Assembly: GCF_030063135.1 (NCBI RefSeq)
Contig: NZ_JASISO010000006.1
Location: forward strand, 1-64,000
Source of the DNA: Streptomyces sp. G-G2
GTDB lineage: Bacteria > Actinomycetota > Actinomycetes > Streptomycetales > Streptomycetaceae
Reading direction: 5' to 3'
Length of the DNA stretch: 64,000 nt
A program made the position numbers and the translations under genes. Under the pieces are notes generated by a model. The model saw nothing but the letters and a program-made list of their open reading frames with translations. It was not told the DNA's origin and made no database searches. Positions 8,923 to 49,317 of the stretch are shown piece after piece. How positions within the stretch are numbered: the first letter of the stretch is position 1; the number at the start of each line of letters is the position of its first letter.

Positions 8923-9330
8923 TCAGCTGCCCGCGGAGAGGTTGCCCGAGAGGATCGGGATGTTGTCCAGGATGTGCGAGAGGGACTCGTCGCCCTTGGC
9001 CTGGGTGGAGTTCTCGGTGCACTGCTGGGTCATCGGGTTGGACAGGATGGGGATGTCCTGGACGCCGACGTTGGCCAGGCCCACCAGCGACTGGACGTTG
9101 ATCTTGGCCGGCAGGGCGACGCAGGGCTTGTTGGCGCTGCCCTGGACCAGGCTGAGCTGCGGGCTCATGTCGCCGTAGGTCTTCTGGTTGCCGTACACCT
9201 GGGACGAGCCGTTGCCGTTGACCGTGTTGACGCCGTTGTCGTTGCCGATGGCCAGGGCGGGGGCGGCCGTGGCGACACCCGCGGTGAGCACGGACGCGCC
9301 GATCAGGGTGGCCTGGACGAGCTTGTTCAT
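8923..9330 (-). CDS. Rodlin, secreted rodlet-layer protein (copy 1)
   Basis: This secreted protein of 135 residues organises chaplin fibrils into rodlets on aerial hyphae and spores. It has a signal peptide with cleavage near ATAAPALA, then the rodlin core: NDNGVNTVNGNGSSQVYGNQ, KTYGDMSPQLSLVQGSANKPC, ILSNPMTQQCTENSTQAKGD, and the end LSHILDNIPILSGNLSAGS. Two cysteines are conserved with the second rodlin at 12890. ATG 9330 lies at better distance from AAAAGG than ATG 9333, so I chose the second of two adjacent ATGs. It corresponds to RdlA/RdlB of S. coelicolor, but I cannot tell which. Confidence 0.93.
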   Translation of the reverse strand: MNKLVQATLIGASVLTAGVATAAPALAIGNDNGVNTVNGNGSSQVYGNQKTYGDMSPQLSLVQGSANKPCVALPAKINVQSLVGLANVGVQDIPILSNPMTQQCTENSTQAKGDESLSHILDNIPILSGNLSAGS

Positions 9331-9601
9331 CATGTTCCTTTTGTCGCACGAGTGCCCGCTAGTGGAGCGCCCTGATCAACTGCCCGGCCGGGGGGTTGGT
9401 TCCGCTGCTTCACTCAAACGGCCCGCTTGCGCGCGGGTTTTCCCCAGCCCGGGTGAGAGCGCTCCGGACGCTTGCGCGAAGCCCGTACGCAGCCAGTAGG
9501 GATCAAGATCCGGTTGCGGTGCGTAGAACCTATTAGCACGGTGGGTGAAATAAGTGGACTTTCGTGGTCCGCCCCGGCCCGAGCACCCGTAAGGAACCGT
9601 C
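9331..9601. promoter_or_regulatory. Divergent promoter region of rodlin and the 9602 secreted-protein gene
   Basis: This stretch of 270 bases between two divergent genes is less GC-rich near 9500-9560 (TATTAGCACGGTGGGTGAAA). AAAAGG serves the rodlin and AAGGAACCGTC precedes the ATG at 9602. Streptomyces rodlin and chaplin genes are under developmental control (sigma BldN); I could not assign exact -35 and -10 boxes. Confidence 0.45.
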
Positions 9602-10533: not shown

Positions 10534-10878
10534 TCAGCCCTGGCCGCCGTTGAGCTTCACGCCACCCAGCATCGGGGTCAGCTTGGTGGCCGAGTTGGCG
10601 GCGCCCAGTACCTCGGTCGGCCCAGCGTTGCGCAACTTGTTCACCTTCTGCGCGGTGCCCACCACCTTGCCCACGGTGTCGCCCTGCTCGGCCAGCCCGT
10701 TGCCCAGGGTCTGCGGGAGTGAGGCGGAGATCGGCGCGGCCGCGTTGAGCACCTCGGTCGCCCCGCTCGTGAGGCTCATGGGCGGCAGCGCTCCCGGCTC
10801 GGCCGCGAAGGCCGGGGTCACGGCGCCGAGGGCGGCGACGGAGCCTGCGAGAACAGCGGCGACCTTCGTGTACTTCAT
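10534..10878 (-). CDS. Small secreted protein of unknown function in the chaplin cluster
   Basis: This 114-residue protein has an N-terminal signal peptide (MKYTKVAAVLAGSVAALG, cleavage after AFA). The mature part is about 87 residues, weakly amphipathic, without cysteines, with segments such as LTSGATEVLNAAAPISASLP and TEVLGAANSATKLTPMLGGV that look like two copies of a short TEVL-x-AA motif. AAAAGGATTTCG precedes the ATG. I know no function; similar small exported proteins accompany chaplins in other Streptomyces, from memory. Location suggests a cell-surface role. Confidence 0.75.
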   Translation of the reverse strand: MKYTKVAAVLAGSVAALGAVTPAFAAEPGALPPMSLTSGATEVLNAAAPISASLPQTLGNGLAEQGDTVGKVVGTAQKVNKLRNAGPTEVLGAANSATKLTPMLGGVKLNGGQG

Positions 10879-12889: not shown

Positions 12890-13300
12890 TCAGCTGCCGG
12901 CGGAGGCGTTGCCGGAGAGGACCGGGATGTTGTCCAGGATGTGCGACAGCGGCTCGTCGCCCTTGGCCTGGGTGGAGTTCTCGGTGCACTGCTGGGTCAT
13001 CGGGTTGGACAGGATGGGGACGTCCTGGATGCCGACGTTCACAGCGGCCACCAGCGACTGCAAGTTGGCCTTGGCGGGCAGGGCGATGCAGGGCTTGTTG
13101 AGGGAGCCCTGGACCAGCGCCATCTGCGGGCTCATGTTCCCGTAGGTGGCCTGGTTGCCGTAGATCTGCGCGGCACCGTTGCCGTTGACGGTGTTGACGC
13201 CGTTGTCGTTCCCGATAGCCATCGCCTGCGGGGCCATGGCCGCACCCATGCCCACGACGGAGGCGGCGACGGCCGCGGCGGCCATCATCTTCTTGATCAC
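12890..13300 (-). CDS. Rodlin, secreted rodlet-layer protein (copy 2)
   Basis: This 136-residue secreted rodlin closely matches the one at 8923 through NDNGVNTVNGNG, the YGN-x-TYG-MSPQ segment and PILSNPMTQQCTENSTQAKG, with the same C-terminal SHILDNIP and SAGS end. The signal peptide cleaves near PQAMA. Translation starts at a GTG with AAAAGGGAC upstream. The two rodlins of S. coelicolor are adjacent; here two chaplins and two other secreted-protein genes lie between them. Confidence 0.93.
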   Translation of the reverse strand: MIKKMMAAAAVAASVVGMGAAMAPQAMAIGNDNGVNTVNGNGAAQIYGNQATYGNMSPQMALVQGSLNKPCIALPAKANLQSLVAAVNVGIQDVPILSNPMTQQCTENSTQAKGDEPLSHILDNIPVLSGNASAGS

Positions 13301-37649: not shown

Positions 37650-39071
37650 ATGAGTTCCGCCACCCAGGACGTGCGCCCGGCGACCGGCCGCGCGCAGGCG
37701 CCCGACCCGGCGCAGTACCGGCCCGGCCGCACCATCACCGAATGGACTCCGGAGGATCCGTCCTTCTGGCGGTCCACCGGCAAGAAGGTCGCCACCCGCA
37801 ACCTGTGGATCGCGGTGCCCGCGCTGCTGGTGGCCTTCGTGGTGTGGCAGGTCTGGAGCATCACGGCCACCAACCTCAAGGACGTCGGCTTCGGCTTCAG
37901 CCAGTCGCAGCTGTTCTGGCTGACGGCCGTCCCGGGCATCACGGGCGGTACCGCCCGCGTCTTCTACACCTTCCTCGGTCCGATGATCGGCCAGCGCCGT
38001 TTCACCGCGCTCTCCACGGTCGTCCTGATCGTTCCGCTGCTGTGGCTGGGCTTCGCGGTCCAGGACCCGCAGACCTCGTACACCACGATGGTCGCGATCG
38101 CCGCGCTCTGCGGCATCGGCGGCGCCAACTTCTCGTCCTCGCTCGCCAACATCGGCTTCTTCTACCCGAAGCAGGAGAAGGGCAACGCGACCGGCATCAA
38201 CGGCGGCCTGGGCAACCTGGGCGTCTCGGTGGTGCAGCTGCTGACCCCGATCCTGATCACCTCCTCGGTGCTGGCGATCGGCGCGGGCCAGAAGAAGGCG
38301 AACGGCTCGGAGATCTACCTCCAGAACGCCGCCTTCGTGTGGGTGCCGGTGCTGGTGGTCCTCGCGGTGGTGGCCTGGTTCGGGCAGAACGACCTCAAGG
38401 TCGCCGCCACCCCCTTCGGCCAGCAGAAGGTCATCTTCAAGCGCAAGCACAACTGGGTGATGACCTGGCTCTACGTCGGCACCTTCGGCTCCTTCATCGG
38501 CTTCGCGGCGGCCCTGCCGCTGCTGATCAAGACCACCTTCCCGGCGTACTCGGTGGCCACCTACGCCTGGATGGGCCCGGCCCTGGGCGCCCTGGCCCGG
38601 TGGGCGGGCGGCTGGATCGCGGACAAGCTGGGCGGGGCGCGGGTCACGATCCTGTCGTTCGTGGGCATGGCCGCGTCGATCATCGGCGTGATCACCTTCC
38701 TGCCCGCGGGCTCCGATCCCGGCTCCTTCCACGGCTTCTTCCTCTGCTTCCTGTCGGCGTTCTTCTTCTCCGGCATCGGCAACGGCTCGACCTTCCGGCA
38801 GATCCCGGTCATCTTCCGAGGCCAGCACCTGAAGGGCCTGGCGGAGGGCACCCCGCGGTACGCGGCCGCGCTGAAGCAGGCGGAGATCGAGTCGGGCGCG
38901 GTCACCGGTTTCACCGCCGCGATCGCCGCGTACGGGTTCTTCTTCATTCCGGCGATGTTCGCGAACTTCGCCGTGACGAGCGCGATGTGGGGCTTCGTGG
39001 CCTTCTATGCCAGCTGTGTGGTCGTGGCCTGGTACTTCTACGCCCGCAAGGGCGCGGAGGCGCCCAGCTGA
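37650..39071 (+). CDS. narK: NarK-family nitrate/nitrite transporter (copy 1)
   Basis: This 473-residue MFS transporter has 12 predicted segments. The family signatures are clear: GITGGTARVFYTFLGP near TM3, GIGGANFSSSLANIGFFYPK with the NarK glycine-rich nitrate signature, KGNATGINGGLGNLGVSVVQ, and a second glycine-rich stretch SGIGNGSTFRQIPVIF. It imports nitrate or exports nitrite. It has the N-terminal TGKKVATRNLW extension typical of actinobacterial NarK. It closely resembles the copy at 47878. A strong hairpin terminates it, so pflB has its own promoter. Confidence 0.94.
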   Translation: MSSATQDVRPATGRAQAPDPAQYRPGRTITEWTPEDPSFWRSTGKKVATRNLWIAVPALLVAFVVWQVWSITATNLKDVGFGFSQSQLFWLTAVPGITGGTARVFYTFLGPMIGQRRFTALSTVVLIVPLLWLGFAVQDPQTSYTTMVAIAALCGIGGANFSSSLANIGFFYPKQEKGNATGINGGLGNLGVSVVQLLTPILITSSVLAIGAGQKKANGSEIYLQNAAFVWVPVLVVLAVVAWFGQNDLKVAATPFGQQKVIFKRKHNWVMTWLYVGTFGSFIGFAAALPLLIKTTFPAYSVATYAWMGPALGALARWAGGWIADKLGGARVTILSFVGMAASIIGVITFLPAGSDPGSFHGFFLCFLSAFFFSGIGNGSTFRQIPVIFRGQHLKGLAEGTPRYAAALKQAEIESGAVTGFTAAIAAYGFFFIPAMFANFAVTSAMWGFVAFYASCVVVAWYFYARKGAEAPS

Positions 39072-39101
39072 GGGCTGCGCGTGCCCGTGCCGCAGGTGCC
39101 C

Positions 39102-39140
39102 CCGACGGGGCCGGAGTCCTGGTGACTCCGGCCCCGTCGG
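39102..39140 (+). terminator. Hairpin terminator after narK1
   Basis: A 17-bp perfect stem (39102-39118 with 39124-39140; left arm CCGACGGGGCCGGAGTC) encloses a 5-base loop. It lies 31 bases beyond the narK1 stop and directly upstream of the Rex-type operator. Confidence 0.88.
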
Positions 39141-39167
39141 TGCGTACGGACACACACGCCGACATCT

Positions 39168-39185
39168 TTGTGAATGTATTCACAA
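39168..39185. promoter_or_regulatory. Rex-type operator upstream of pflB
   Basis: TTGTGAATGTATTCACAA is a perfect match to the Rex consensus TTGTGAA-N4-TTCACAA, with 8-bp perfect arms. Rex, first described in S. coelicolor, represses respiratory and fermentative genes when NADH is low and releases DNA when NADH accumulates at low oxygen; in Firmicutes it controls pflB among others. The site also satisfies the CRP half-site pattern TGTGA-N6-TCACA. It lies about 175 bases before the pflB ATG, between the narK1 terminator and the pflB leader. Confidence 0.82.
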
Positions 39186-39194
39186 GCGAACCAA

Positions 39195-39206
39195 GGACTT
39201 TGGTCC
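39195..39206. promoter_or_regulatory. Possible DosR/OsdR-like dormancy box
   Basis: GGACTTTGGTCC matches the core of the mycobacterial DosR box (GGACT-W-W-A-GTCC) at 11 of 12 positions but lacks the outer bases. It starts ten bases after the Rex site. Streptomyces has a DosR homologue, OsdR. The match is short and could be chance. Confidence 0.35.
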
Positions 39207-39334
39207 GGCTCGAAATGCCAGGTCAGGGGCGGGGTAGGGGGCTGGAAGGCGGATTGCGCGGGACCTTCGGGCGTCAGGTGGGGACCAACGCGGCCGTAAA
39301 TGATCGATCAAAAGGCGTCCAATGGAGGCAAGCA

Positions 39335-39364
39335 ATGAGGCGACTCGGAAGGTGCGGGCGATGA
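39335..39364 (+). CDS. Possible 9-residue leader peptide overlapping pflB start
   Basis: ATG 39335 follows TGGAGGCAAGCA, the best ribosome site in the region, and encodes MRRLGRCGR before a TGA that overlaps the pflB ATG (ATGA, 39361-39364). Such an arrangement allows translational coupling to pflB. It is too short to evaluate by coding statistics. It could instead be fortuitous, with GGAAGG serving pflB directly. Confidence 0.4.
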
Positions 39365-41631
39365 CTGCCACCCCTGCGGAAACCACGAAGAACGGCGGAG
39401 CCTGGAACGGCTTCAAGGGCGGACTGTGGCGCGACGCCATCGACGTCCGCGACTTCATCCAGCAGAACTACACGCCGTACGAGGGTGACGACTCCTTCCT
39501 CGCGGGCCCGACCGAGCGCACCACCGCCGTGTGGAAGGCGATCACGGACAAGTTCCCGGAGGAGCGCGAGAAGGGCGTCTACGACGTCGCGCACGACATC
39601 CCCTCCACGATCACCGCGCACGCTCCCGGCTACATCGACCGCGACAAGGACCTGATCGTCGGCCTCCAGACGGACGCCCCGCTCAAGCGCGCGATCATGC
39701 CGTACGGGGGCTGGCGCCTGGTCGCCGGCGCCCTGGAGACCTACGGCTACCCGGTCTCCGAGGACCTGGAGAAGGTCTTCACGGAGTACCGCAAGACCCA
39801 CAACGCCGGTGTCTTCGACGCCTACACCCCCGAGATCCGCGCCGCCCGCAAGGCGGGCATCGTCACCGGGCTGCCCGACGCCTACGGCCGCGGCCGCATC
39901 ATCGGCGACTACCGCCGCGTGGCCCTCTACGGCGTCGACCGCCTCATCGCCGTGAAGAAGGAGGAGAAGGAGGAGCTGAACGCCCTCCCCGCGGGCGACC
40001 GCTCGCTGGAAGAGACGATCCGCCTGCGCGAAGAACTCGCCGAGCAGATCCGCGCGCTCGCCGAGCTGAAGGCCATGGCGGCCTCCTACGGCCGCGACAT
40101 CTCCGGCCCGGCGGGCAGCGGCCACGAGGCCGTCCAGTGGCTGTACTTCGGCTACCTCGCCGCCGTGAAGGAGCAGAACGGCGCGGCCATGTCGCTGGGC
40201 CGCACCTCCACCTTCATCGACGTCTACCTCCAGCGCGACATCGAAGCCGGTCTCCTGACGGAGGAAGCGGCCCAGGAGCTGGTGGACGACTTCATCATCA
40301 AGCTCCGCATCGTGCGCTTCCTGCGCACCCCGGACTACGACGAGCTGTTCTCCGGCGACCCCACCTGGGTCACCGAGTCGATCGCGGGCATGGGCGAGGA
40401 CGGCCGCCCGCTGGTCACCAAGTCCTCCTTCCGCTACCTCCAGACCCTCTACAACCTCGGCCCGGCCCCCGAGCCGAACATGACGGTCTTCTGGTCGCCG
40501 CGGCTGCCGCAGGGCTTCAAGGAGTTCTGCGCCCGGGTCTCCATCGACACCTCGTCGGTCCAGTACGAATCGGACGAGCTGATGCGTCCGCGCTTCGGCG
40601 ACGACACCGCCATCGCGTGCTGCGTCTCGGCGATGCCCGTCGGCAAGCAGATGCAGTACTTCGGCGCCCGCGTGAACGTCGCCAAGACCCTGCTCTACGC
40701 GATCAACGGCGGCCGGGACGAGAAGTCCGGCGCCCAGGTCGGCCCCTCGACCGGCGCGCTGACCTCGGAGGTGCTCGACTACGACGAGGTCATGGCCAAG
40801 TTCGACGAGCAGATGGAATGGCTCGCGGGCACCTACGTGCACGCGCTCAACGTCATCCACTACATGCACGACAAGTACGCCTACGAGCGCATCGAGATGG
40901 CGCTCCACGACCGCGACGTGCGCCGCACGATGGCCTGCGGCATCGCCGGTCTCTCGGTCGCGGCGGATTCGCTGGCCGCCATCAAGTACGCCGGGGTCAC
41001 CCCGGTCCGCGACGAGACCGGCCTGGTCACCGACTACGTGACCGAGGGCGAGTACCCGGCGTACGGCAACAACGACGACCGGGTCGACGACATCGCGGTC
41101 TGGCTGGTCGAGGAGTTCATGAAGAAGGTGCGGGGGCACGCGACCTACCGCGGCGCCGAGCACACCCAGTCGGTGCTGACCATCACCTCGAACGTCGTCT
41201 ACGGCAAGAAGACCGGCAACACGCCGGACGGCCGCCGCGCGGGCGAGCCGTTCTCCCCGGGCGCCAACCCGATGAACGGCCGCGACACCCACGGCTACGT
41301 CACCTCGGCCCTGTCGGTCGCCAAGCTGCCGTACGAGGACGCCGAGGACGGCATCTCGCTGACCAACACGGTCACCCCCGACGGCCTGGGCCGCACCCCC
41401 GAGGAGCGGATCAAGAACCTGGCGGGTGTCCTCGACGGCTACATGGCCAGCGACGGCTTCCACATGAACGTCAACGTGCTCAACCGCGACACGCTCATGG
41501 ACGCCATGGAGCACCCGGAGGACTACCCGCAGCTGACCATCCGCGTGAGCGGGTACGCGGTGAACTTCGTCCGGCTGACCCGCGCGCAGCAACTGGACGT
41601 GCTGAACCGCACGTTCCACGGCTCGCTGTAG
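39361..41631 (+). CDS. pflB: Pyruvate formate-lyase (formate C-acetyltransferase)
   Basis: This 756-residue glycyl-radical enzyme converts pyruvate and CoA to acetyl-CoA and formate. All functional landmarks are present: the adjacent catalytic cysteines Cys420-Cys421 in AIACCVSAM, the radical glycine Gly731 in RVSGYAVNF, and the PFL opening [20 protein letters not shown]. Length and residue positions match the E. coli enzyme (760 residues, Cys418/419, Gly734) almost exactly, so this is a true PFL rather than a diol dehydratase relative. The radical is destroyed by oxygen, so it should work only anaerobically. The activase gene follows. I chose ATG 39361 over 39322 because of GGAAGG. Confidence 0.97.
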
Positions 41632-41699
41632 GACGCCGACGGGCCGCGCGAGCCTCGCGGGGCCTCGCGGGGCTCACGGGGCGCCATGACCCGTGCGGC

Positions 41700-41723
41700 C
41701 CGGGGCGGGGCCTCCCGCCCCGG
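41700..41723 (+). promoter_or_regulatory. Stem-loop between pflB and pflA
   Basis: CCGGGGCGGG (41700-41709) pairs with CCCGCCCCGG (41714-41723) across four bases. In a 175-bp gap within the pfl operon it could be a partial terminator or an mRNA-stability element that lowers activase expression relative to the lyase. Confidence 0.5.
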
Positions 41724-41806
41724 CCCCGGGACCGCGCGACTCCCACCGCCCCACCCGATCACCCGGCCCCACACCAGATCAGCCTCTCGCATCTGGAGCA
41801 CCTGCC

Positions 41807-42643
41807 ATGACCGTCCTGTTCGGTACGAACATCCCCGTCGGCGCCGCCAACGCCGTCCCCGTGAGCCCGGGCCGAAGCCCCCGGACCCCCGCCGCCGCGG
41901 CGACCCAGCGGCCGAGCGAGGGCTCCGTGCACTCCTGGGACCTGTCGACCGGTGTGGACGGCCCCGGGACCCGGTTCGTGACGTTCCTGGCGGGCTGCCC
42001 GCTGGCCTGCCTGTACTGCCACAACCCCGACACCCTGCGGATGCGCAACGGCAGGCGGACCTCCGCCGACGACGTGATCGCCGAGGCGGGCAAGTACACC
42101 CGGTTCATCACCGCCTCCGGCGGCGGCGCCACCATCTCCGGCGGCGAGCCGCTGCTCCAGCCGGTCTTCGCGGGCGAGCTGCTGCACCGGATGAAGCACG
42201 ACCTCGGGCTGCACACCGCCCTGGACACCTCCGGCTTCCTCGGGGCCCGCGCCGCCGACGCGCTGCTGCGCGATGTGGACCTGGTGCTCCTGGACATCAA
42301 GTCCTGGGACCGGGAGACCTACCAGCGCGTCACCGGCCGCCCCTTGGAACCCACCCTCGACTTCGCCCGCCGCCTCGCCGGCCTCGGCAAGGAGGTGCAC
42401 CTGCGCTTCGTCCTGGTGCCGGGGCTGACCGACGCCCGGGAGAACGTCGAGGGTGTCGCCGCCTTCGCCGGGGGACTCGGCAACGTCTCGCGGGTCGACG
42501 TACTGCCCTTCCACAAGCTCGGCGAGAGCAAGTGGGACGCGCTCGGCATGGAGTTCTCGCTGCGCGACACGCCGTCGCCGACCGGCGAGCAGATCGCCGA
42601 GGCCAAGGCGGTCTTCGCGGCCCGCGGCCTGACTGCGGTCTGA
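41807..42643 (+). CDS. pflA: Pyruvate formate-lyase activating enzyme (radical SAM)
   Basis: This 278-residue radical-SAM activase uses S-adenosylmethionine and a 4Fe-4S cluster to make the glycyl radical on PflB. The cluster motif C-x3-C-x2-C is Cys64, Cys68 and Cys71 in GCPLACLYCHNPDT. The GGE motif of SAM binding is in TISGGEPLLQ, and LLDIKSWDRETYQRVTG is typical of activases. The first 35 residues are an Ala/Pro/Ser-rich extension. TGGAGCA precedes ATG 41807. Adjacency to pflB makes the pairing very likely. Confidence 0.95.
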   Translation: MTVLFGTNIPVGAANAVPVSPGRSPRTPAAAATQRPSEGSVHSWDLSTGVDGPGTRFVTFLAGCPLACLYCHNPDTLRMRNGRRTSADDVIAEAGKYTRFITASGGGATISGGEPLLQPVFAGELLHRMKHDLGLHTALDTSGFLGARAADALLRDVDLVLLDIKSWDRETYQRVTGRPLEPTLDFARRLAGLGKEVHLRFVLVPGLTDARENVEGVAAFAGGLGNVSRVDVLPFHKLGESKWDALGMEFSLRDTPSPTGEQIAEAKAVFAARGLTAV

Positions 42644-42793
42644 TCCGCCGCCCCGGGCGGTCCGCACGACCGCCCGTACGACCGCCCGTGTGGGCGGTCC
42701 GCACCGGCCCCGCTGAATGGCCTTCGCTCGAATGGCTCAGCAATAAGGGCTTAATAACGGGCTGAACCAGGACATACGCCCTAGCGTGGTTCT
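42644..42793. promoter_or_regulatory. AT-richer promoter region of the molybdoenzyme operon
   Basis: After a short GC-rich inverted stretch near 42660-42700, the sequence AATAAGGGCTTAATAACGGG (42741-42760) stands out as AT-rich. TAGCGT at 42782-42787 is a good -10 box only seven bases from the GTG, and no ribosome site is visible, which suggests a leaderless transcript. No Rex site is seen here. Confidence 0.45.
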
Positions 42794-43909
42794 GTGCCCG
42801 AGCCCTCAGAAGTACTCGCCGCAGCGCCACCCCCCGACGAGGCGCCCGTTCCGCAGCCCCCGCCGCGGCCGGAGCCGGGCGCGGGACGGTCCGTCACCGC
42901 GCGGGCCACCCTGGCGGGCGCCGTGGTCTCGCTGCTCCTGATCGCCGCGATCGTCCTGGGCAGCAGGCTGCTGCGCGACTTCGACTCGGCGCTGCTCCCG
43001 TACGCGGTCGCCACCGTCTTCCTCGCCTTCGGCGTCGCCTACCGCTACACGGTCTGGGTCTCCGCGCCCGGCGCGCGCCGTCTCTTCAAGAAGGGGTTCG
43101 GCAGCCTCTTCTCGGCGGCCAACTTCCGCAAGGCACCCACCGCGCTGCCGAAGATGATCGCCACCTACCTCGGCTTCCAGAAGTTCCTCGGCGCCCGCTC
43201 GCACGCCCGCTGGGCCGCCCACCAGCTGATCTTCTGGGGCTGCGTCCTGGCCGCGATGATCACCTTCCCGCTGACCTGGGGCTGGTTCACCTTCACCTCG
43301 AACAGCGCCTCGGGACCCGGCTACGAGATGCGCATCTGGGGCTTCAAGGTGCTCGGCTTCGACTCGCTGAACATCCTGGGCTGGCTGATGTTCCACGGCC
43401 TCGACATCGCCGCCGCCCTGGTCATCCCCGGGGCCTCGTACTTCCTGTGGCGGCGGATGAAGGACCGCGGGGCCATCACCGGGCAGCGCTTCGCCTACGA
43501 CCTGCTCCCGCTCATCATGCTGATCGTCATCTCGGTGACCGGGCTGCTGCTCACCTTCTCGTCGATCTTCCTGCACGGCGGGGGGTACGAGTTCCTGGCG
43601 ATCCTGCACATGGTCTCGGTGGTCTTCACCCTCATCTACATCCCCTTCGGGAAGTTCTTCCACATCGTGCAGCGGCCCGCGGCCGTCGGGATGCAGCTCT
43701 TCAAGTACACCGGCCGCCAGGACGACCAGGTCTTCGCCTGCAAGCGGTGCGGGGAGCCCGTGGACACGGCCCCGTACGTCGAGAACCTGCGCGGCACCAT
43801 GCGGGACCTGAAGCTCGACTTCGACGCCTGGGCGGAGTACTGCCCGCGCTGCAAGCGGGTGCTGCGCGGCGGCGCGTACCTCGACCACGTGAAGAAGGGC
43901 TTCAAGTGA
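42794..43909 (+). CDS. Membrane cytochrome-b-like electron-transfer subunit with C-terminal zinc ribbon
   Basis: This 371-residue protein has a Pro-rich cytoplasmic N-terminus and about six hydrophobic segments. Histidines sit at helix positions suited to two b hemes (AHQLIFWG, MFHGLDIAA, ILHMVSVVF, FGKFFHIVQ), as in NarI/HdrE-like cytochromes. Its C-terminus is a rubredoxin- or zinc-ribbon-like knuckle: Cys316-x2-Cys319 in CKRCGEP and a second CxxC in YCPRCKRV. Database entries tend to call such proteins MFS transporters, which the topology does not support. It is coupled by GTGA to the molybdoenzyme gene and likely passes electrons from menaquinol. Confidence 0.75.
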   Translation: MPEPSEVLAAAPPPDEAPVPQPPPRPEPGAGRSVTARATLAGAVVSLLLIAAIVLGSRLLRDFDSALLPYAVATVFLAFGVAYRYTVWVSAPGARRLFKKGFGSLFSAANFRKAPTALPKMIATYLGFQKFLGARSHARWAAHQLIFWGCVLAAMITFPLTWGWFTFTSNSASGPGYEMRIWGFKVLGFDSLNILGWLMFHGLDIAAALVIPGASYFLWRRMKDRGAITGQRFAYDLLPLIMLIVISVTGLLLTFSSIFLHGGGYEFLAILHMVSVVFTLIYIPFGKFFHIVQRPAAVGMQLFKYTGRQDDQVFACKRCGEPVDTAPYVENLRGTMRDLKLDFDAWAEYCPRCKRVLRGGAYLDHVKKGFK

Positions 43910-46206
43910 GCAAGCAGCGCATCCCGCTCGACCCTTCGATCTCCCCGCCCGGAACCCGCAACTTCCGCGACGCGGGCGGCATCCCGGCCGATCAGTGGCA
44001 CGCCGACCAGAACGGCGAGACCCTCGTCCCCACCCACTGCTGCTTCTGCGGGGTGCAGTGCGGGATGTACCTGCGCGTCGACAAGGGCGGCAAGGTCTTC
44101 GGCGTCGAACCGCGCAACCACGACATCAACCGGATGCGCCTGTGCCCCAAGGGCATCAACGCCTACCAGCAGGTCAACCACCCCGACCGGCTGACCGCCC
44201 CGCTGATGCGCCGCTCCCGCGAGGAACCCTTCAAGGAGGTCTCCTGGGACGAGGCGCTGGACCACACCGTCGCCGAGGTCCGGCGCATCCAGGCCGCGCA
44301 CGGCAACGACGCCTTCGGCCTGCTCGGCGGCGCCAGCCTGTACTCGGAGAAGACCTACCTGGTCGGCAAGTTCGGCCGGGTCGCCCTCAAGACCCGGCAC
44401 GTGGACTACAACGGCCGGCTGTGCATGGTCAGCGCCGCCGGGGCCAACAAACTGGCCTTCGGCATCGACCGGGCGGGCAACCCCTTCTCCGACATCCTCC
44501 TCACCGACTGCCTGCTGATCGCCGGGTCGAACGTGGGGGAGTGCTTCCCCGTGATGACCCAGTACGTGTGGGGCGCCCGGGACCGGGGAGCCCTCCTCAT
44601 CGTGATCGACCCGCGTGAGACGGCGGTCGCGCGGACCGCCGACATCCACGTCGCCCTCAAGCCCGGCACCGACTCGGCCTTCTTCAACGCCGTCCTCAAC
44701 GTCGTCGTCGAAGAGGGACTGACCGACGAGGCCTTCCTCGCCGAGCACACCACGGGCTGGGACGAGGTCAAGAAGACCGTCGCGCAGTACCCGCCCTCCC
44801 GCTCCGCCGAGATCTGCGGGATCCCGGCCTCCCAGATCGTCCAGGTCGCCCGCGCCTTCGCGGGCGCCGGGAACGCCATGGCCATGCACGCGCGCGGCGT
44901 GGAGCACCACTCCCAGGGCGTCGAGAACTGCCTGTCGATCATCAACCTCTGCACGGCCACCGGGAACCTCGGCAAGCCGGGCGCCGGATACGGCACCATC
45001 ACCGGCCAGGGCAACGGTCAGGGCGGCCGCGAACACGGCCAGAAGTCCGACCTCCTGCCCGGCGGCCGCTCCATCATGAACGAGGAGCACCGCCGCCAGA
45101 TCTGCGCGATCTGGGGCATCGAGGAATCCGAACTCCCGCTCGCCGGCACCTCCATGATGGAGATGGTCTGGCAGATGCAGCGGCGCGAGATCCGCGGTCT
45201 GATCGGCATCTGCAACAACCCTTTCGTCTCGCTCCCCAACTACGCGACGGTCAAGGAGGGGTACGACGCCCTCGAATTCCACGCCCAGTTCGACTTCTTC
45301 CTCTCCGAGACCGCCGCCAACGCGCACGTGGTCTTCCCGGTCACCGTGTGGGCCGAGGACGAGGGCGTCATGGCCAACACCGAGGCCCGCGTCGTCAAGC
45401 ACAACAAGGCGCAGGAGCCCCCGGCCGGGGTACGCACCGACACCTGGGTGATGTGCGAACTGGCCCGCCGCCTCGGCGTCGGCGAAAAATTCGACTTCCC
45501 CGGCTCCCGCGAGGTCTTCGAGGAGCTGCGAGTCGCCTCCGCGGGCACGGTCAACGACTACTACGGGATCACCTACGAGCGCCTGGAGGAGACCGGCGGC
45601 ATCGTCTGGCCGTGCCCTTCCACCGACCACCCGGGCACCCCCCGGCTGTTCGAGGGCGGCAAGACCTTCCACCCCGACGAGAAGGTCCACCTGCAGGTCG
45701 TCGAGTGGCATCCGCCCATGGACGCCTACACCGAGGAGTACCCCCTCTCCCTCACCACGGGCCGCACCGTCGCGCACTTCCTCTCCGGCAACCAGACCCG
45801 CCGTCTGGGTGCCCTGGTCGAGCAGACCCCGCGCCCCTGGGTGGAGGTCCACCCCTCGCACGGGTTCCGCAACGGCGATCCGGTCCGGGTGGTCACGCGC
45901 CGGGGCAGCGAGGTCTTCCCGGCCCTGGTCACCGAGGCCATCCGCCCGGACACCGTCTTCATCCCCTACCACTGGCCCGTCCCGACGGCCGCGAACGCCC
46001 TGACCATCGACGCCCTCGACCCCCGGTCCAAGATCCCCGAGTACAAGGTCTGCGCCGCCCGGATCGAGGCCGCCGAGCGGGTCGACGAGGTGCCCGCCCC
46101 GCCGACCGCCCCCGGGCACGTGGCCTACCCGGAAACCCAGGTCTCCCGCACCGACCCCCTGCCACCCTCGTCCCCGCAGGGGCGCGGCACGGCGGACAGG
46201 AGCTGA
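43906..46206 (+). CDS. Molybdopterin oxidoreductase, NasA/NarB-like (putative nitrate reductase)
   Basis: This 766-residue catalytic subunit has the N-terminal 4Fe-4S site Cys45-x2-Cys48-x3-Cys52-x27-Cys80 (CCFCGVQCGM, then RLCPKG). The bis-MGD domain follows, with probable molybdenum ligand Cys173 in YNGRLCMVSAAG, the pattern of assimilatory nitrate reductases (RLCMSSA) rather than the CHGPS type of formate dehydrogenase. A C-terminal molydop-binding domain (TTGRTVAHFLSGNQTRR) is present. It lacks a Tat signal, so it should be cytoplasmic. Nitrate is the best-guess substrate, given two NarKs. Formate, made by the adjacent PFL, remains possible. Confidence 0.9.
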   Translation: MSKQRIPLDPSISPPGTRNFRDAGGIPADQWHADQNGETLVPTHCCFCGVQCGMYLRVDKGGKVFGVEPRNHDINRMRLCPKGINAYQQVNHPDRLTAPLMRRSREEPFKEVSWDEALDHTVAEVRRIQAAHGNDAFGLLGGASLYSEKTYLVGKFGRVALKTRHVDYNGRLCMVSAAGANKLAFGIDRAGNPFSDILLTDCLLIAGSNVGECFPVMTQYVWGARDRGALLIVIDPRETAVARTADIHVALKPGTDSAFFNAVLNVVVEEGLTDEAFLAEHTTGWDEVKKTVAQYPPSRSAEICGIPASQIVQVARAFAGAGNAMAMHARGVEHHSQGVENCLSIINLCTATGNLGKPGAGYGTITGQGNGQGGREHGQKSDLLPGGRSIMNEEHRRQICAIWGIEESELPLAGTSMMEMVWQMQRREIRGLIGICNNPFVSLPNYATVKEGYDALEFHAQFDFFLSETAANAHVVFPVTVWAEDEGVMANTEARVVKHNKAQEPPAGVRTDTWVMCELARRLGVGEKFDFPGSREVFEELRVASAGTVNDYYGITYERLEETGGIVWPCPSTDHPGTPRLFEGGKTFHPDEKVHLQVVEWHPPMDAYTEEYPLSLTTGRTVAHFLSGNQTRRLGALVEQTPRPWVEVHPSHGFRNGDPVRVVTRRGSEVFPALVTEAIRPDTVFIPYHWPVPTAANALTIDALDPRSKIPEYKVCAARIEAAERVDEVPAPPTAPGHVAYPETQVSRTDPLPPSSPQGRGTADRS

Positions 46207-46212
46207 CCCGCC

Positions 46213-46812
46213 ATGATGGGCAGAACGATCTTCATCGACCCGGGCCGCTGCATCGGCTGCCAGGCGTGTGTCTCCGCCTGCCGCGAATGCGACTCGCACC
46301 GCGGCACATCGATGATCCACCTGGACTACACCGACCCCGGCATGTCCGTCGCCTCCCTTCCCACCGTGTGCATGCACTGTGAGGACCCGGTCGCGCCCTG
46401 CGCCGAGGTCTGTCCCGCCGACGCGATCCTCGTGACCGCCGACGGGGTGGTGCAGCAGGCCGACACCACCCGCTGCATCGGCTGCGGCAACTGCGTCAAC
46501 GCCTGCCCCTTCGGCGTCCCGAAGATCGACCTCCAGGCGAAGCTGCAGATGAAGTGCAACCTCTGCTACGACCGCACCGCCTACGGCCTCGCCCCGATGT
46601 GCGCCACGGTCTGCCCCACCGGGGCGCTGTTCTACGGCACCCTCGAGGAACTCCAGGCCGAGCGCCCCGGCGTCCAGGTCGCCGACTCCTTCGTCTTCGG
46701 CGATGTCGTCGTCCAGACCGGGGTGGCGATGGTCGTCCCCGCCGACAAGGTGCAGTGGCCCGTCCCGGGCGGGCTCCCCGTCGTCGAGATCAACGGAGTC
46801 GATGTCCGATGA
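46213..46812 (+). CDS. Four-cluster 4Fe-4S electron-transfer subunit (DmsB/NrfC-like)
   Basis: This 199-residue ferredoxin-like subunit has four cysteine groups: CIGCQACVSACREC, CMHCEDPVAPCAEVC, CIGCGNCVNACPFG, and CNLCYDR paired with CATVCP. This is the layout of the beta subunits of DmsB/FdnH/NrfC enzymes. It has no signal peptide, in keeping with a cytoplasmic complex. It links the membrane cytochrome to the molybdenum subunit. It starts six bases after that gene's stop, and its own stop overlaps the Rieske gene's ATG (46809-46812). Confidence 0.95.
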   Translation: MMGRTIFIDPGRCIGCQACVSACRECDSHRGTSMIHLDYTDPGMSVASLPTVCMHCEDPVAPCAEVCPADAILVTADGVVQQADTTRCIGCGNCVNACPFGVPKIDLQAKLQMKCNLCYDRTAYGLAPMCATVCPTGALFYGTLEELQAERPGVQVADSFVFGDVVVQTGVAMVVPADKVQWPVPGGLPVVEINGVDVR

Positions 46813-47516
46813 GCGTCACCGAACAGCCCGCTCCGCCCCCCGGCGGCGACTCCGGCCCTGGCCCCGGCGGCGGATCCGGCTCGGGCAGCGGACCCGCCGC
46901 CGATACGGGGGTGGACGCCGCCGCCGAGCAGCTCCGCGACCGGATCAGCGCCGACTCCCTGACCACCCGGCGCGACTACCTGCGGATCGTCGCCACCGTC
47001 TCCGGCGGACTCGCCGTCGGCGGGGTGGGCGTGGCGGCGGGCATCCTGCACCGGCACGGCGACTCCGAGAAGCCGCCCAAGGCCAAGAAGGTCGTCGACC
47101 TGCTCCCGCCGGGGGAGTCGGTGGCCTTCCGGTTCCCCGGCGAGGAGGACCGGGCCCTCGCGGTCCGCCTCAAGGACGGCACCCTCGTCGGCTACTCCGC
47201 CGTGTGCACCCACTTGGCCTGCGCGGTGCTCTGGCGCGAGGACCGCGGCCCGGAAGGGGAGCTGTACTGCCCCTGCCACGAGGGCGTCTTCGACGCCCGC
47301 ACCGGCGAGGTCACCGCGGGCCCCCCGCCCCGCCCGCTGCCCAGGATCTTCCTGACCGAGGAGGTGGACGGCAGCGTCTGGGCCGTGGCCACCTCCCGGT
47401 CCGGAGAGCCGGCCAAGGACGCCCTGTGCCGGCAGTTCAGCGAGGCCCGCCCGGACATGGCCGCCCGCCTGGGCTGCCCGGGCGGGGCCCGCGCCACCGA
47501 GAGCAGGCGGACATGA
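46809..47516 (+). CDS. Rieske 2Fe-2S protein with Tat-like signal anchor
   Basis: This 235-residue protein has a Gly/Ser/Pro-rich N-terminus of about 50 residues, a twin-arginine-like motif (TTRRDYLRIV) before a hydrophobic segment (GGLAVGGVGVAAGIL), and then a Rieske domain. Its two cluster-binding boxes are CTHLAC and CPCHEGVFD, with the disulfide cysteines. By analogy with QcrA the domain would be exported folded and anchored. A Rieske protein in a molybdoenzyme operon suggests a bc1-like quinol-oxidising path. It overlaps both neighbours by four bases. Confidence 0.93.
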   Translation: MSVTEQPAPPPGGDSGPGPGGGSGSGSGPAADTGVDAAAEQLRDRISADSLTTRRDYLRIVATVSGGLAVGGVGVAAGILHRHGDSEKPPKAKKVVDLLPPGESVAFRFPGEEDRALAVRLKDGTLVGYSAVCTHLACAVLWREDRGPEGELYCPCHEGVFDARTGEVTAGPPPRPLPRIFLTEEVDGSVWAVATSRSGEPAKDALCRQFSEARPDMAARLGCPGGARATESRRT

Positions 47517-47881
47517 ACGACGAGCGGCTCCCGCCGCGCCCCGAGTACGTGCCCGGCAGCGCCCAGCCCCGGCTGAACCGGCCGGTCCGGGAGCGCTATC
47601 CCCAGATCCGTGCCACCAGTGGCTACGGCGACCCCCGGATCCGGCACACGGGCCCCGGCCCGGGGGCGGGCACCGAGCAGGAGCCGGAACGCTCCTCGAA
47701 GCTCAACGCCCGTCTCGCCCTCGCCCTCACCGTCGTGATCGGCCAGCTCTGGGCGCTGACCGTGACCGTCAACGAGTGGATGAAGGGCAATACCCACACG
47801 GCCTGGTGGGGGGCGGGATTCCTGTTCCTGTCCTTCCTGGTCGTGCTGGGTCTGTGGCTCCTCGACCCGAAGGACCGATGA
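47513..47881 (+). CDS. Small two-TM membrane protein of the molybdoenzyme operon
   Basis: This 122-residue protein has a Pro/Arg-rich soluble N-terminus (1-68) and two hydrophobic segments: ARLALALTVVIGQLWALTVT and AGFLFLSFLVVLGLWLLD. There are no histidines in the membrane part except HTAWW in the loop, so it is not an obvious heme protein. It may be an assembly or anchoring subunit specific to this complex. It overlaps its neighbours on both sides through ATGA junctions. I recognise no family. Confidence 0.8.
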   Translation: MNDERLPPRPEYVPGSAQPRLNRPVRERYPQIRATSGYGDPRIRHTGPGPGAGTEQEPERSSKLNARLALALTVVIGQLWALTVTVNEWMKGNTHTAWWGAGFLFLSFLVVLGLWLLDPKDR

Positions 47882-49317
47882 CCATGTCCATACCCACCCC
47901 CACTCCCACCTCGCGGGCGCCCCGGTCCCACCGGGCCGAGACCTACAAGCCGGGCGCCACGATCGGGGACTGGCGCCCCGAGGACGACGGCTTCTGGCAG
48001 TCCACCGGCCGCACTGTGGCCCAGCGCAACCTGTGGATCTCGATCCCCGCGCTGATGCTCGGCTTCGTGGTCTGGCAGGTCTGGTCGGTCACCGTCGTCA
48101 AGCTCAACGACGTCGGTTTCGGCTTCTCCACATCGCAGCTGTTCTGGCTGACCGCCATTCCCGGCATCACCGGCGGCACCTTCCGGATCCTGTACACCTT
48201 CATCGGGCCGATCTTCGGCGAGCGGAAGTTCACCGCGCTCAGCACCCTGGTCCTGGTGGCCCCGATGCTGTGGCTGGGCTTCGCGCTCCAGGACACCGGG
48301 ACGCCGTACTGGGAGCTGGCCCTGATCGCGGCCGTCTGCGGCATAGGCGGCGCCAACTTCGCGTCCTCGATGGCCAACATCGGCTTCTTCTTCCCCAAAC
48401 GGGAGAAGGGCAGCGCCAACGGCCTCAACGGCGGCCTCGGCAACCTCGGCGTCAGCGTCGTCCAGCTGGTCGCGCCGCTGGTGGTCACCGCCGCGGTGCT
48501 CGGCGCCCCGGCGGGCGGACCGCAGCACGACGCCAAGAAGGACACCGACATCTGGCTGCAGAACGGCGCCTTCCTCTGGGTGCCGCTGCTGGTCATCATG
48601 GCGCTGCTCGCGTGGTTCCTGATGAACGACCTCAAGGTGGCCGCGTCCCCCTTCAGCGCACAGAAGATCATCTTCAAGCGCAAGCACAACTGGCTGATGA
48701 CCTGGCTCTACGTCGGCACCTTCGGGTCCTTCATCGGCTTCGCCGCGGGCCTGCCGCTGCTGATCAAGAACAACTTCGAGGCCCAGGGCTACCAGGCCAC
48801 CACCTATGCCTGGATCGGCCCCTTCGTCGGCGCGATCATGCGGTGGGTGGGTGGCTGGCTCTCCGACAAGATCGGCGGGGCCAGGGTCACCATGCTGTCC
48901 TTCGTCGGCATGGCGGCCGCACTGGTCGTGGTGATCTTCGCGCTGCCTTCCGGAAGCGACCAGGGAAGCTTCTGGACCTTCTTCATCGGCTTCCTCGTGG
49001 CCTTCTTCTTCTCCGGGATGGGCAACGGCTCGACCTTCCGGCAGATCCCGGTCATCTTCCGGGACCAGCACGCGAAGCTGGCCGAGGGTCAGGGCCCCGA
49101 GGTGCAGGCCGCCGCCCTGAAGCAGTCGGAGATGGAGGCGGGCGCCGTCACCGGCTTCTCCTCCGCGATCGCCGCCTACGGCTTCTTCTTCATCCCGGCG
49201 ATGTTCGCCGCCATGGCGGTCACCAACGCGCTGTGGATGTTCATCGGGTTCTACGCGACCTGTCTGGTCGTCTGCTGGTGGTTCTACGCCCGCAAGGGCG
49301 CCGAAGCTCCCAGCTGA
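47878..49317 (+). CDS. narK: NarK-family nitrate/nitrite transporter (copy 2)
   Basis: This 479-residue transporter is closely similar to the first copy throughout: GITGGTFRILYTFIGP, GIGGANFASSMANIGFFFPK, KGSANGLNGGLGNLGVSVVQ, SGMGNGSTFRQIPVIF. It differs mainly in the loop after TM6 (AGGPQHDAKKDTDIW). It is translationally coupled to the molybdoenzyme operon (ATGA, 47878-47881), so substrate uptake is co-expressed with the enzyme. This is the best contextual argument that the enzyme reduces nitrate. One copy may import nitrate and the other exchange nitrite; sequence alone does not decide. Confidence 0.95.
   Translation: MTMSIPTPTPTSRAPRSHRAETYKPGATIGDWRPEDDGFWQSTGRTVAQRNLWISIPALMLGFVVWQVWSVTVVKLNDVGFGFSTSQLFWLTAIPGITGGTFRILYTFIGPIFGERKFTALSTLVLVAPMLWLGFALQDTGTPYWELALIAAVCGIGGANFASSMANIGFFFPKREKGSANGLNGGLGNLGVSVVQLVAPLVVTAAVLGAPAGGPQHDAKKDTDIWLQNGAFLWVPLLVIMALLAWFLMNDLKVAASPFSAQKIIFKRKHNWLMTWLYVGTFGSFIGFAAGLPLLIKNNFEAQGYQATTYAWIGPFVGAIMRWVGGWLSDKIGGARVTMLSFVGMAAALVVVIFALPSGSDQGSFWTFFIGFLVAFFFSGMGNGSTFRQIPVIFRDQHAKLAEGQGPEVQAAALKQSEMEAGAVTGFSSAIAAYGFFFIPAMFAAMAVTNALWMFIGFYATCLVVCWWFYARKGAEAPS

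Follow-up and report, generated by a model that had tools for sequence, protein, structure and literature searches.

Neighboring pyruvate formate-lyase and Nas-type molybdoenzyme operons in Streptomyces sp. G-G2: two candidate low-oxygen units

Gene content and layout of the locus

In Streptomyces sp. G-G2, one stretch of contig NZ_JASISO010000006.1 brings together pyruvate formate-lyase (PFL) and a molybdoenzyme of nitrate-reductase type. An earlier note on this DNA had placed narK, pflB, pflA and genes for a cytochrome b-like protein, a molybdopterin oxidoreductase, a four-cluster ferredoxin, a Rieske protein, a small membrane protein and a second NarK consecutively on one strand, and all nine are present in that order on the plus strand at 37650-49317 of the 64,000-nucleotide stretch analyzed here (the "window"; positions are as numbered there; Table 1). 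We propose, at a probability of about 0.57, that the locus comprises two neighboring low-oxygen units: a Rex-switched pflBA pair and a membrane-bound, quinol-linked nitrate reductase operon of six genes (hereafter the module).

The layout suggests three separate transcripts, i.e., narKa, pflBA and the module, which runs from the cytochrome b-like gene to narKb with 4-base overlaps throughout (ATGA at narKb) except for one 6-base gap. The hairpin 3' of narKa is unusually stable (z -6.4 for 39095-39150; none of 200 shuffles equally stable) and is absent from the output of a sigma-70/terminator scan of the window, which gave nothing useful. The conserved element ends 6 bases 5' of the module's GTG start and aligns in loci with pfl (16) and without it (12), and it may be a leaderless-type promoter common to pfl-bearing and pfl-free strains. 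Because the hairpin and the Rex site precede pflB and the conserved element precedes the module, we rejected a single transcription unit spanning all nine genes.

Table 1. Features of the nine-gene locus, in window coordinates.
Feature	Position	Strand	Basis
narKa, NarK-family nitrate/nitrite transporter of the major facilitator superfamily (MFS)	37650..39071	+	TIGR00886 315 bits, cut-off 312
Strong hairpin 3' of narKa, possible terminator without T-run	39102..39140	+	Fold -45.5 kcal/mol for 39095-39150
Rex operator TTGTGAATGTATTCACAA 5' of pflBA	39168..39185	+	Perfect consensus match
pflB, pyruvate formate-lyase (C433, C434, G744)	39322..41631	+	TIGR01255; 64% identity to E. coli K-12 PflB
pflA, radical SAM PFL-activating enzyme	41807..42643	+	TIGR02493; CX3CX2C
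Conserved promoter-like element (~AACRGG ... TASSGT)	42753..42787	+	Aligned in 28 chosen loci
Membrane cytochrome b-like subunit, C-terminal CXXC pair	42794..43909	+	Invariant H/C in 13 sequences
Nas-type molybdenum nitrate reductase catalytic subunit (by sequence)	43906..46206	+	NasC best NCBIfam model; signature; tree
Four [4Fe-4S] electron-transfer subunit, FDH-beta/DmsB-like	46213..46812	+	Profile matches; 17 invariant Cys in 13 sequences
Rieske [2Fe-2S] protein	46809..47516	+	PF00355
Small membrane protein, DUF6755-like	47513..47881	+	PF20540 24 bits, below cut-off 27
narKb, NarK-family transporter	47878..49317	+	TIGR00886 329 bits, cut-off 312; 67% identity to narKa

The pyruvate formate-lyase pair and its operator

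By family score and by residue, PFL, an oxygen-sensitive fermentation enzyme, looks intact, as does its activase. PflB reaches 1180 bits with the TIGR01255 equivalog (cut-off 994), and PflA 280 with TIGR02493 (cut-off 232). Aligned with E. coli K-12 PflB, C433-C434 and G744 fall in register with the Cys-Cys pair and the glycine of RVSGYAV, which confirms the earlier claim that PflB has both catalytic cysteines and the radical glycine, and PflA (39% identical to its K-12 counterpart) keeps its CX3CX2C motif. The roles of the three PflB residues are presumed to be those of the E. coli enzyme.

Upstream of this pair lies the sole perfect match in the window to TTGTGAA-N4-TTCACAA, and none arose in 100 shuffles. 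The genome has one PF06971 (Rex-type) gene, whose domain we take to be the Rex N-terminal domain, so that an operator and a rex-type gene are both present. This motif agrees with the consensus determined for Rex of S. avermitilis; the part of that study drawn on here reports no perfect site in the S. avermitilis genome and names no pfl target, in which respect the window's pflBA differs (PMC5355995). In S. aureus, on the other hand, Rex binds upstream of the pflB operon, and that regulon (pflBA, narG, nir) shares with our locus the Rex site before pflB and the same consensus (PMC2883068).

We surveyed the site across 61 pflB upstream regions, with one row per distinct region and only pflB matches covering 80% of the gene. 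Among the 45 module-linked regions, 26 carry a perfect site and one a site with a single mismatch (the other 18 are taken up below), while the 16 regions without the module include one perfect site, one with one mismatch, one with two and 13 with none. The half-sites are fixed and the spacer is variable, and none of 100 shuffles was as good for any region with at most two mismatches. A perfect operator before pflBA fits use under redox stress, and PFL looks redox-switched. With an OsdR-like pattern built here from sites quoted in PMC5069765 (300 bases 5', up to one mismatch), boxes lie 5' of pflB in 48% of 62 regions (single-base shuffles, 5%), 5' of the cytochrome b-like gene in 3% (shuffles, 8%) and 5' of narKa in 12% (shuffles, 9%).

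The 53 rows of a PflB tree include two lineages, about 74% alike, that occupy the place beside the module; both also have a few stand-alone members, and a further clade (10 rows) is stand-alone. At ten loci (L120, L121, L137, L138, L140, L141, L147, L173, L175, L178), the PflB at the module place is just 71-75% like that of the window and comes with a perfect Rex site, whereas the adjoining molybdoenzyme is 87-90% like the window's; pflB there looks like a replacement in place. Partial pfl units were also seen (L096 12558-14847, L117, L113, L134, L160, L176), comprising narKa-pflA without pflB (S. virginiae), pflA pieces and pflB pieces, and they suggest repeated loss of pfl beside a retained module.

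The nitrate-reductase-type module and its distribution

The molybdoenzyme finds its best NCBIfam model in NasC (767 bits), and its match to Fdh-alpha (564 bits) falls below that model's cut-off of 666. The active site combines Cys173-Met with TGQGNGQGGREHGQK, as in the aligned Nas proteins, and these share GQGNGQGGREHG with the module enzyme; in the two formate dehydrogenases of the alignment, Cys-His and GQNNVQG stand there instead. Across 13 sequences from Streptomyces, other Actinomycetota and Deinococcus, the Mo-ligand Cys173 is invariant and the four cysteines for a [4Fe-4S] cluster are kept, and inspection of the protein by eye gave no Tat signal. In a 14-protein tree (AioA not among the sequences; three of four Nas proteins adjoining an annotated nirB), seven module enzymes unite (100/99) and then group with the four Nas proteins (100/99), to the exclusion of NapA and two formate dehydrogenases; the grouping persists without NapA and one long Nas branch. 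On profile scores, signature and tree, then, the catalytic subunit is Nas-type, not a formate dehydrogenase or NarG, and together with the NarK neighbors at this locus this supports the nitrate-type enzyme of the earlier note. The genome has six molybdopterin-family genes, none of which is NarG over the TIGR01580 cut-off. Separately, a 1177-residue open frame in the same genome (L074; G000:C85) fuses a molybdoenzyme to a flavohemoprotein-reductase-like domain.

The accompanying subunits are conserved over the same 13 sequences. No Pfam model matches the cytochrome b-like protein, and its QmoC/TmcC matches in profile scans are weak; its H143, H272, H290, C316, C319, C350 and C353 are invariant, which is consistent with a heme-carrying subunit, and the C-terminal CXXC pair suggests a metal site. 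(Deinococcus records annotate this protein "MFS transporter," e.g., L187 8836-9948.) Of the invariant ferredoxin cysteines, 16 fit four clusters. The Rieske protein has an N-terminal TTRRDYLRIV and one hydrophobic segment, with CTHLAC, CPCH and RR invariant in 23 Streptomyces sequences and the ligands kept in the broader 13. The gene at the position of the small membrane protein is annotated DUF6755 in Deinococcus, and an open-access search found no literature on DUF6755.

Is the locus an island, as the earlier note called it? A PFL-family match, in a few cases a fragment, is present in 110 of 295 Streptomyces genomes. Among 40 PFL loci (the best-scoring PFL places, the rest picked by hand), 22 have pflBA with the module, two have pflBA at the same place without it, 15 have pflBA elsewhere, and one contig is too short. 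In the 22, mscL comes next in 20 and an LtrA-type gene lies before in 10 (many stretches end earlier); in 17 further loci chosen for the module, mscL comes next in 16, with no pfl gene in 15 and pflA alone in two. With mscL as the next gene in nearly all of these loci (20 of 22 and 16 of 17), we rejected an island or recent insertion in favor of a conserved chromosomal place.

The earlier note also took the combination to be, as far as it knew, undescribed for the genus, and this does not hold: besides the 110 genomes above, S. lividans has a PFL (SCO0206) listed with the nitrate reductase SCO0216-0219 (Nar2) in the OsdR group, the two rising together (PMC6302529). PFL with nitrate reductase is therefore already in print and was rejected as new for Streptomyces; PMC5069765 covers the same Nar2 genes, its part used here not naming PFL. 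The SCO0206-SCO0219 region of S. coelicolor and S. lividans resembles our locus in having a hypoxia-linked PFL near nitrate reductase and nitrate transporter genes, but the nitrate reductase there is NarGHJI, whereas the window's locus has a Nas-type complex and a Rex operator. The new elements look to be the module and the Rex site, not the mere presence of PFL, and open-access literature searches found no description of the six-gene module.

The module also stands without pfl. A survey of named loci, i.e., the best 80 of 168 relatives and no census, gave an apparently full pflB in 31, pflB fragments only in two, pflA without pflB in four and, in the stretch read, no pfl in 43; six loci (L122, L130, L135, L151, L154, L164) start less than 1.7 kb from the module's first gene, and further pfl genes are possible there. 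S. xanthophaeus (L105) carries both units and S. griseus (L116) the module without a pfl neighbor. The first five module genes keep their order in other Actinomycetota and on Deinococcus plasmids. Within 100 genomes of the phylum, the cytochrome b-like gene occurs in eight: our own, five clear non-genus relatives (54-59% identity) and two marginal ones. The five-gene order is complete in four of the five non-genus loci, the fifth being cut by a contig end, and a distant NarK-type gene follows in two of the five. Four Deinococcus plasmid records match the cytochrome b-like gene, and in the two that were read the order is the same, a DUF6755 gene and a NarK-type gene included. Two of these NarK-type proteins were scored, from an actinobacterium and from Deinococcus; NarK models are their best matches, at 222 and 277 bits, below the cut-off of 312.

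For co-occurrence we used 101 genus genomes (G000-G100), treated as a single set across scans on the agreement of labels and sizes, with the cytochrome b-like gene as module marker. We counted 27 of its 29 matches, leaving out a partial one in G078 and one at E 5e-4 in G081; among those counted, most of the module is missing from G038, and in G008 the contig cuts it short. The PFL list excludes fragments in G034, G042 and G087, and the Fisher tests ignore kinship. NarG over the cut-off occurs in 3/27 module-marker genomes vs. 27/74 others (p 0.014), and NarG or the module in 27/36 PFL genomes vs. 27/65 others (p 0.0017). Where PFL and the module share a genome, they are neighbors in 10 of 11 cases, and in two genomes picked for it (G057 and G048) a narG match above the cut-off lies ~5 and 12 kb from PFL. 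Most simply read, the module would be a quinol-linked nitrate reductase in the role of NarGHI, and PFL has repeatedly been placed near one or the other nitrate reductase.

Elsewhere in the window, three minus-strand genes (8923-9333, 10534-10878 and 12890-13300) encode small secreted-looking proteins without a Pfam match, which presumably resemble rodlins or chaplins. Transfer RNA and Rfam scans of the window gave nothing useful.

Proposed roles and competing explanations

In the two-unit proposal, a rise in NADH would release Rex from the operator before pflBA, PflA would install the glycyl radical on PflB, and PflB would split pyruvate into acetyl-CoA and formate without NADH production. In the second unit, NarK would import nitrate and export nitrite, menaquinol would supply electrons to the cytochrome b-like subunit and the Rieske protein, and the four-cluster ferredoxin would pass them to a cytoplasmic Nas-type molybdoenzyme that reduces nitrate to nitrite. 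The module would so stand in for NarGHI, with which it shares an expected job (quinol-linked, with a four-cluster electron-transfer subunit and a membrane cytochrome b) but from which it differs in its catalytic subunit, in its extra Rieske protein and in that none of the nine genes matches the NarJ family in profile scans.

We give even chances to a wider claim, namely that the operon represents an undescribed class of quinol-linked respiratory nitrate reductase, in which a cytoplasmic Nas-type subunit would have gained a ferredoxin, a non-bc1 cytochrome b-like anchor with a CXXC tail, an external Tat-type Rieske protein, a DUF6755 protein and, in some lineages, NarK. Such a class would span Actinomycetota and Deinococcota, replace NarGHI in many Streptomyces and, beside a Rex-switched PFL in some, form an anoxic survival kit. 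The module shares clade and active-site signature with NasC/NasA/NarB but adds a four-cluster ferredoxin, a membrane subunit and a Rieske protein, and the excerpted text of PMC7331816 states that the clade of NasA/NasC, AioA and NapA has no member associated with the first two. Because a four-cluster subunit and a membrane anchor accompany a Nas-clade enzyme here and across two phyla (both are kept in five non-genus loci and two Deinococcus plasmids), the operon is a counter-example.

Several observations weigh against the two-unit proposal. The catalytic subunit falls below the NasC cut-off (767 vs. 1100 bits), as does the genome's other NasC-type protein (796 bits). The AlphaFold model of the cytochrome b-like protein is poor (pLDDT 48.9), and heme number and membrane sidedness, as proposed, are for that reason taken from sequence. 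Eighteen of the 45 module-linked pflB regions, including those of S. gardneri, S. wedmorensis and S. exfoliatus, lack a Rex site (5-7 mismatches), and the nine of these present in the PflB tree all fall in one 11-row group (89/90); in addition, the best OsdR-like box in the window has two mismatches. PFL and the module are not associated across genomes (11/36 vs. 16/65, p 0.64), and several strains have a missing or broken pflB beside the module; pflBA and the module look to be separate in their histories as well as in their transcription. No NarK neighbor appears in the stretch read at 47 of the best 80 of 168 module loci (33 have one), nor at three of the five non-genus loci (one cut by a contig end); an argument for nitrate from NarK is therefore not general, and the NarK-less majority of module-only loci speaks against a strict link to nitrate transport. 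Finally, G038 (L093 9056-10283) keeps part of the cytochrome b-like gene by a narK piece, with most of the module lost, and the module itself can thus be lost by internal deletion.

An alternative, which we consider somewhat unlikely, is that the complex serves nitrate assimilation, with quinol replacing ferredoxin or NADH as donor and nitrite passing to a NirB-type enzyme. The grouping of the catalytic subunit with Nas proteins, three of them beside nirB, speaks for it, as does the statement that NasA/NasC are exclusively assimilatory (PMC7331816). Genomic context points the other way: the window's contig has no PF01077 (nitrite/sulfite-reductase-family) match (the flanks in other Streptomyces were not searched for PF01077), and none is annotated within 9 kb in the two Deinococcus plasmids (from an incomplete gene table). 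The genome's other NasC-type protein, which is 44% identical to that of the module, does share a contig with a PF01077 gene and presumably serves assimilation, for which reason the module is most likely respiratory or redox-balancing. Its membrane anchor and four-cluster subunit would fit quinol-linked respiration, and it rarely co-occurs with NarG.

We also consider it unlikely that pflBA, whether inherited or traded, is a seldom expressed relic in the course of being lost. Many strains do lack pfl beside the module, several have fragments or a lone pflA, and in S. lividans the annotation of pflA is that of a putative pseudogene fragment (PMC6302529). Yet the window's PflB and PflA frames are open with catalytic residues kept, the operator with its fixed half-sites and varied spacer is retained in 26 of 45 regions, and S. 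lividans SCO0206 rose from 0 to 74 transcripts per million (TPM) with the OsdR group (PMC6302529).

We think it improbable that the complex acts on another oxyanion or in the oxidizing direction. Arsenite oxidase AioAB is likewise a molybdoenzyme with a Tat-type Rieske subunit, which the module recalls; most module loci surveyed have no NarK neighbor, and sequence alone does not fix the substrate. The module nevertheless differs from AioAB by its additional four-cluster and membrane subunits and by the cysteine ligand to Mo, kept along with the four cluster cysteines, while AioA is listed without a protein ligand (PMC7331816); the Nas clade and signature argue likewise. Very improbable is a formate dehydrogenase oxidizing PFL-derived formate: these enzymes are the closest solved structures by sequence and Fdh-alpha gives a sizeable score, but we rejected the identity on Cys173-Met in place of Cys/Sec-His, the Nas signature and the tree, and 16 of 27 module-marker genomes lack a full PFL gene.

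Returning to the two proposed low-oxygen units, their interest lies in the "anaerobic paradox," whereby streptomycetes are called obligate aerobes and said to be unable to grow anaerobically, yet carry anaerobic enzymes (PMC5069765). A NarGHI-free operon of nitrate-reductase type, preceded by a conserved promoter-like element of its own and lying beside a PFL with a perfect Rex site, makes this paradox testable, and the module could aid the survival of an "aerobic" soil bacterium when oxygen is absent. As a counter-example to the generalization in PMC7331816, the module also bears on the evolution of respiratory molybdoenzymes.

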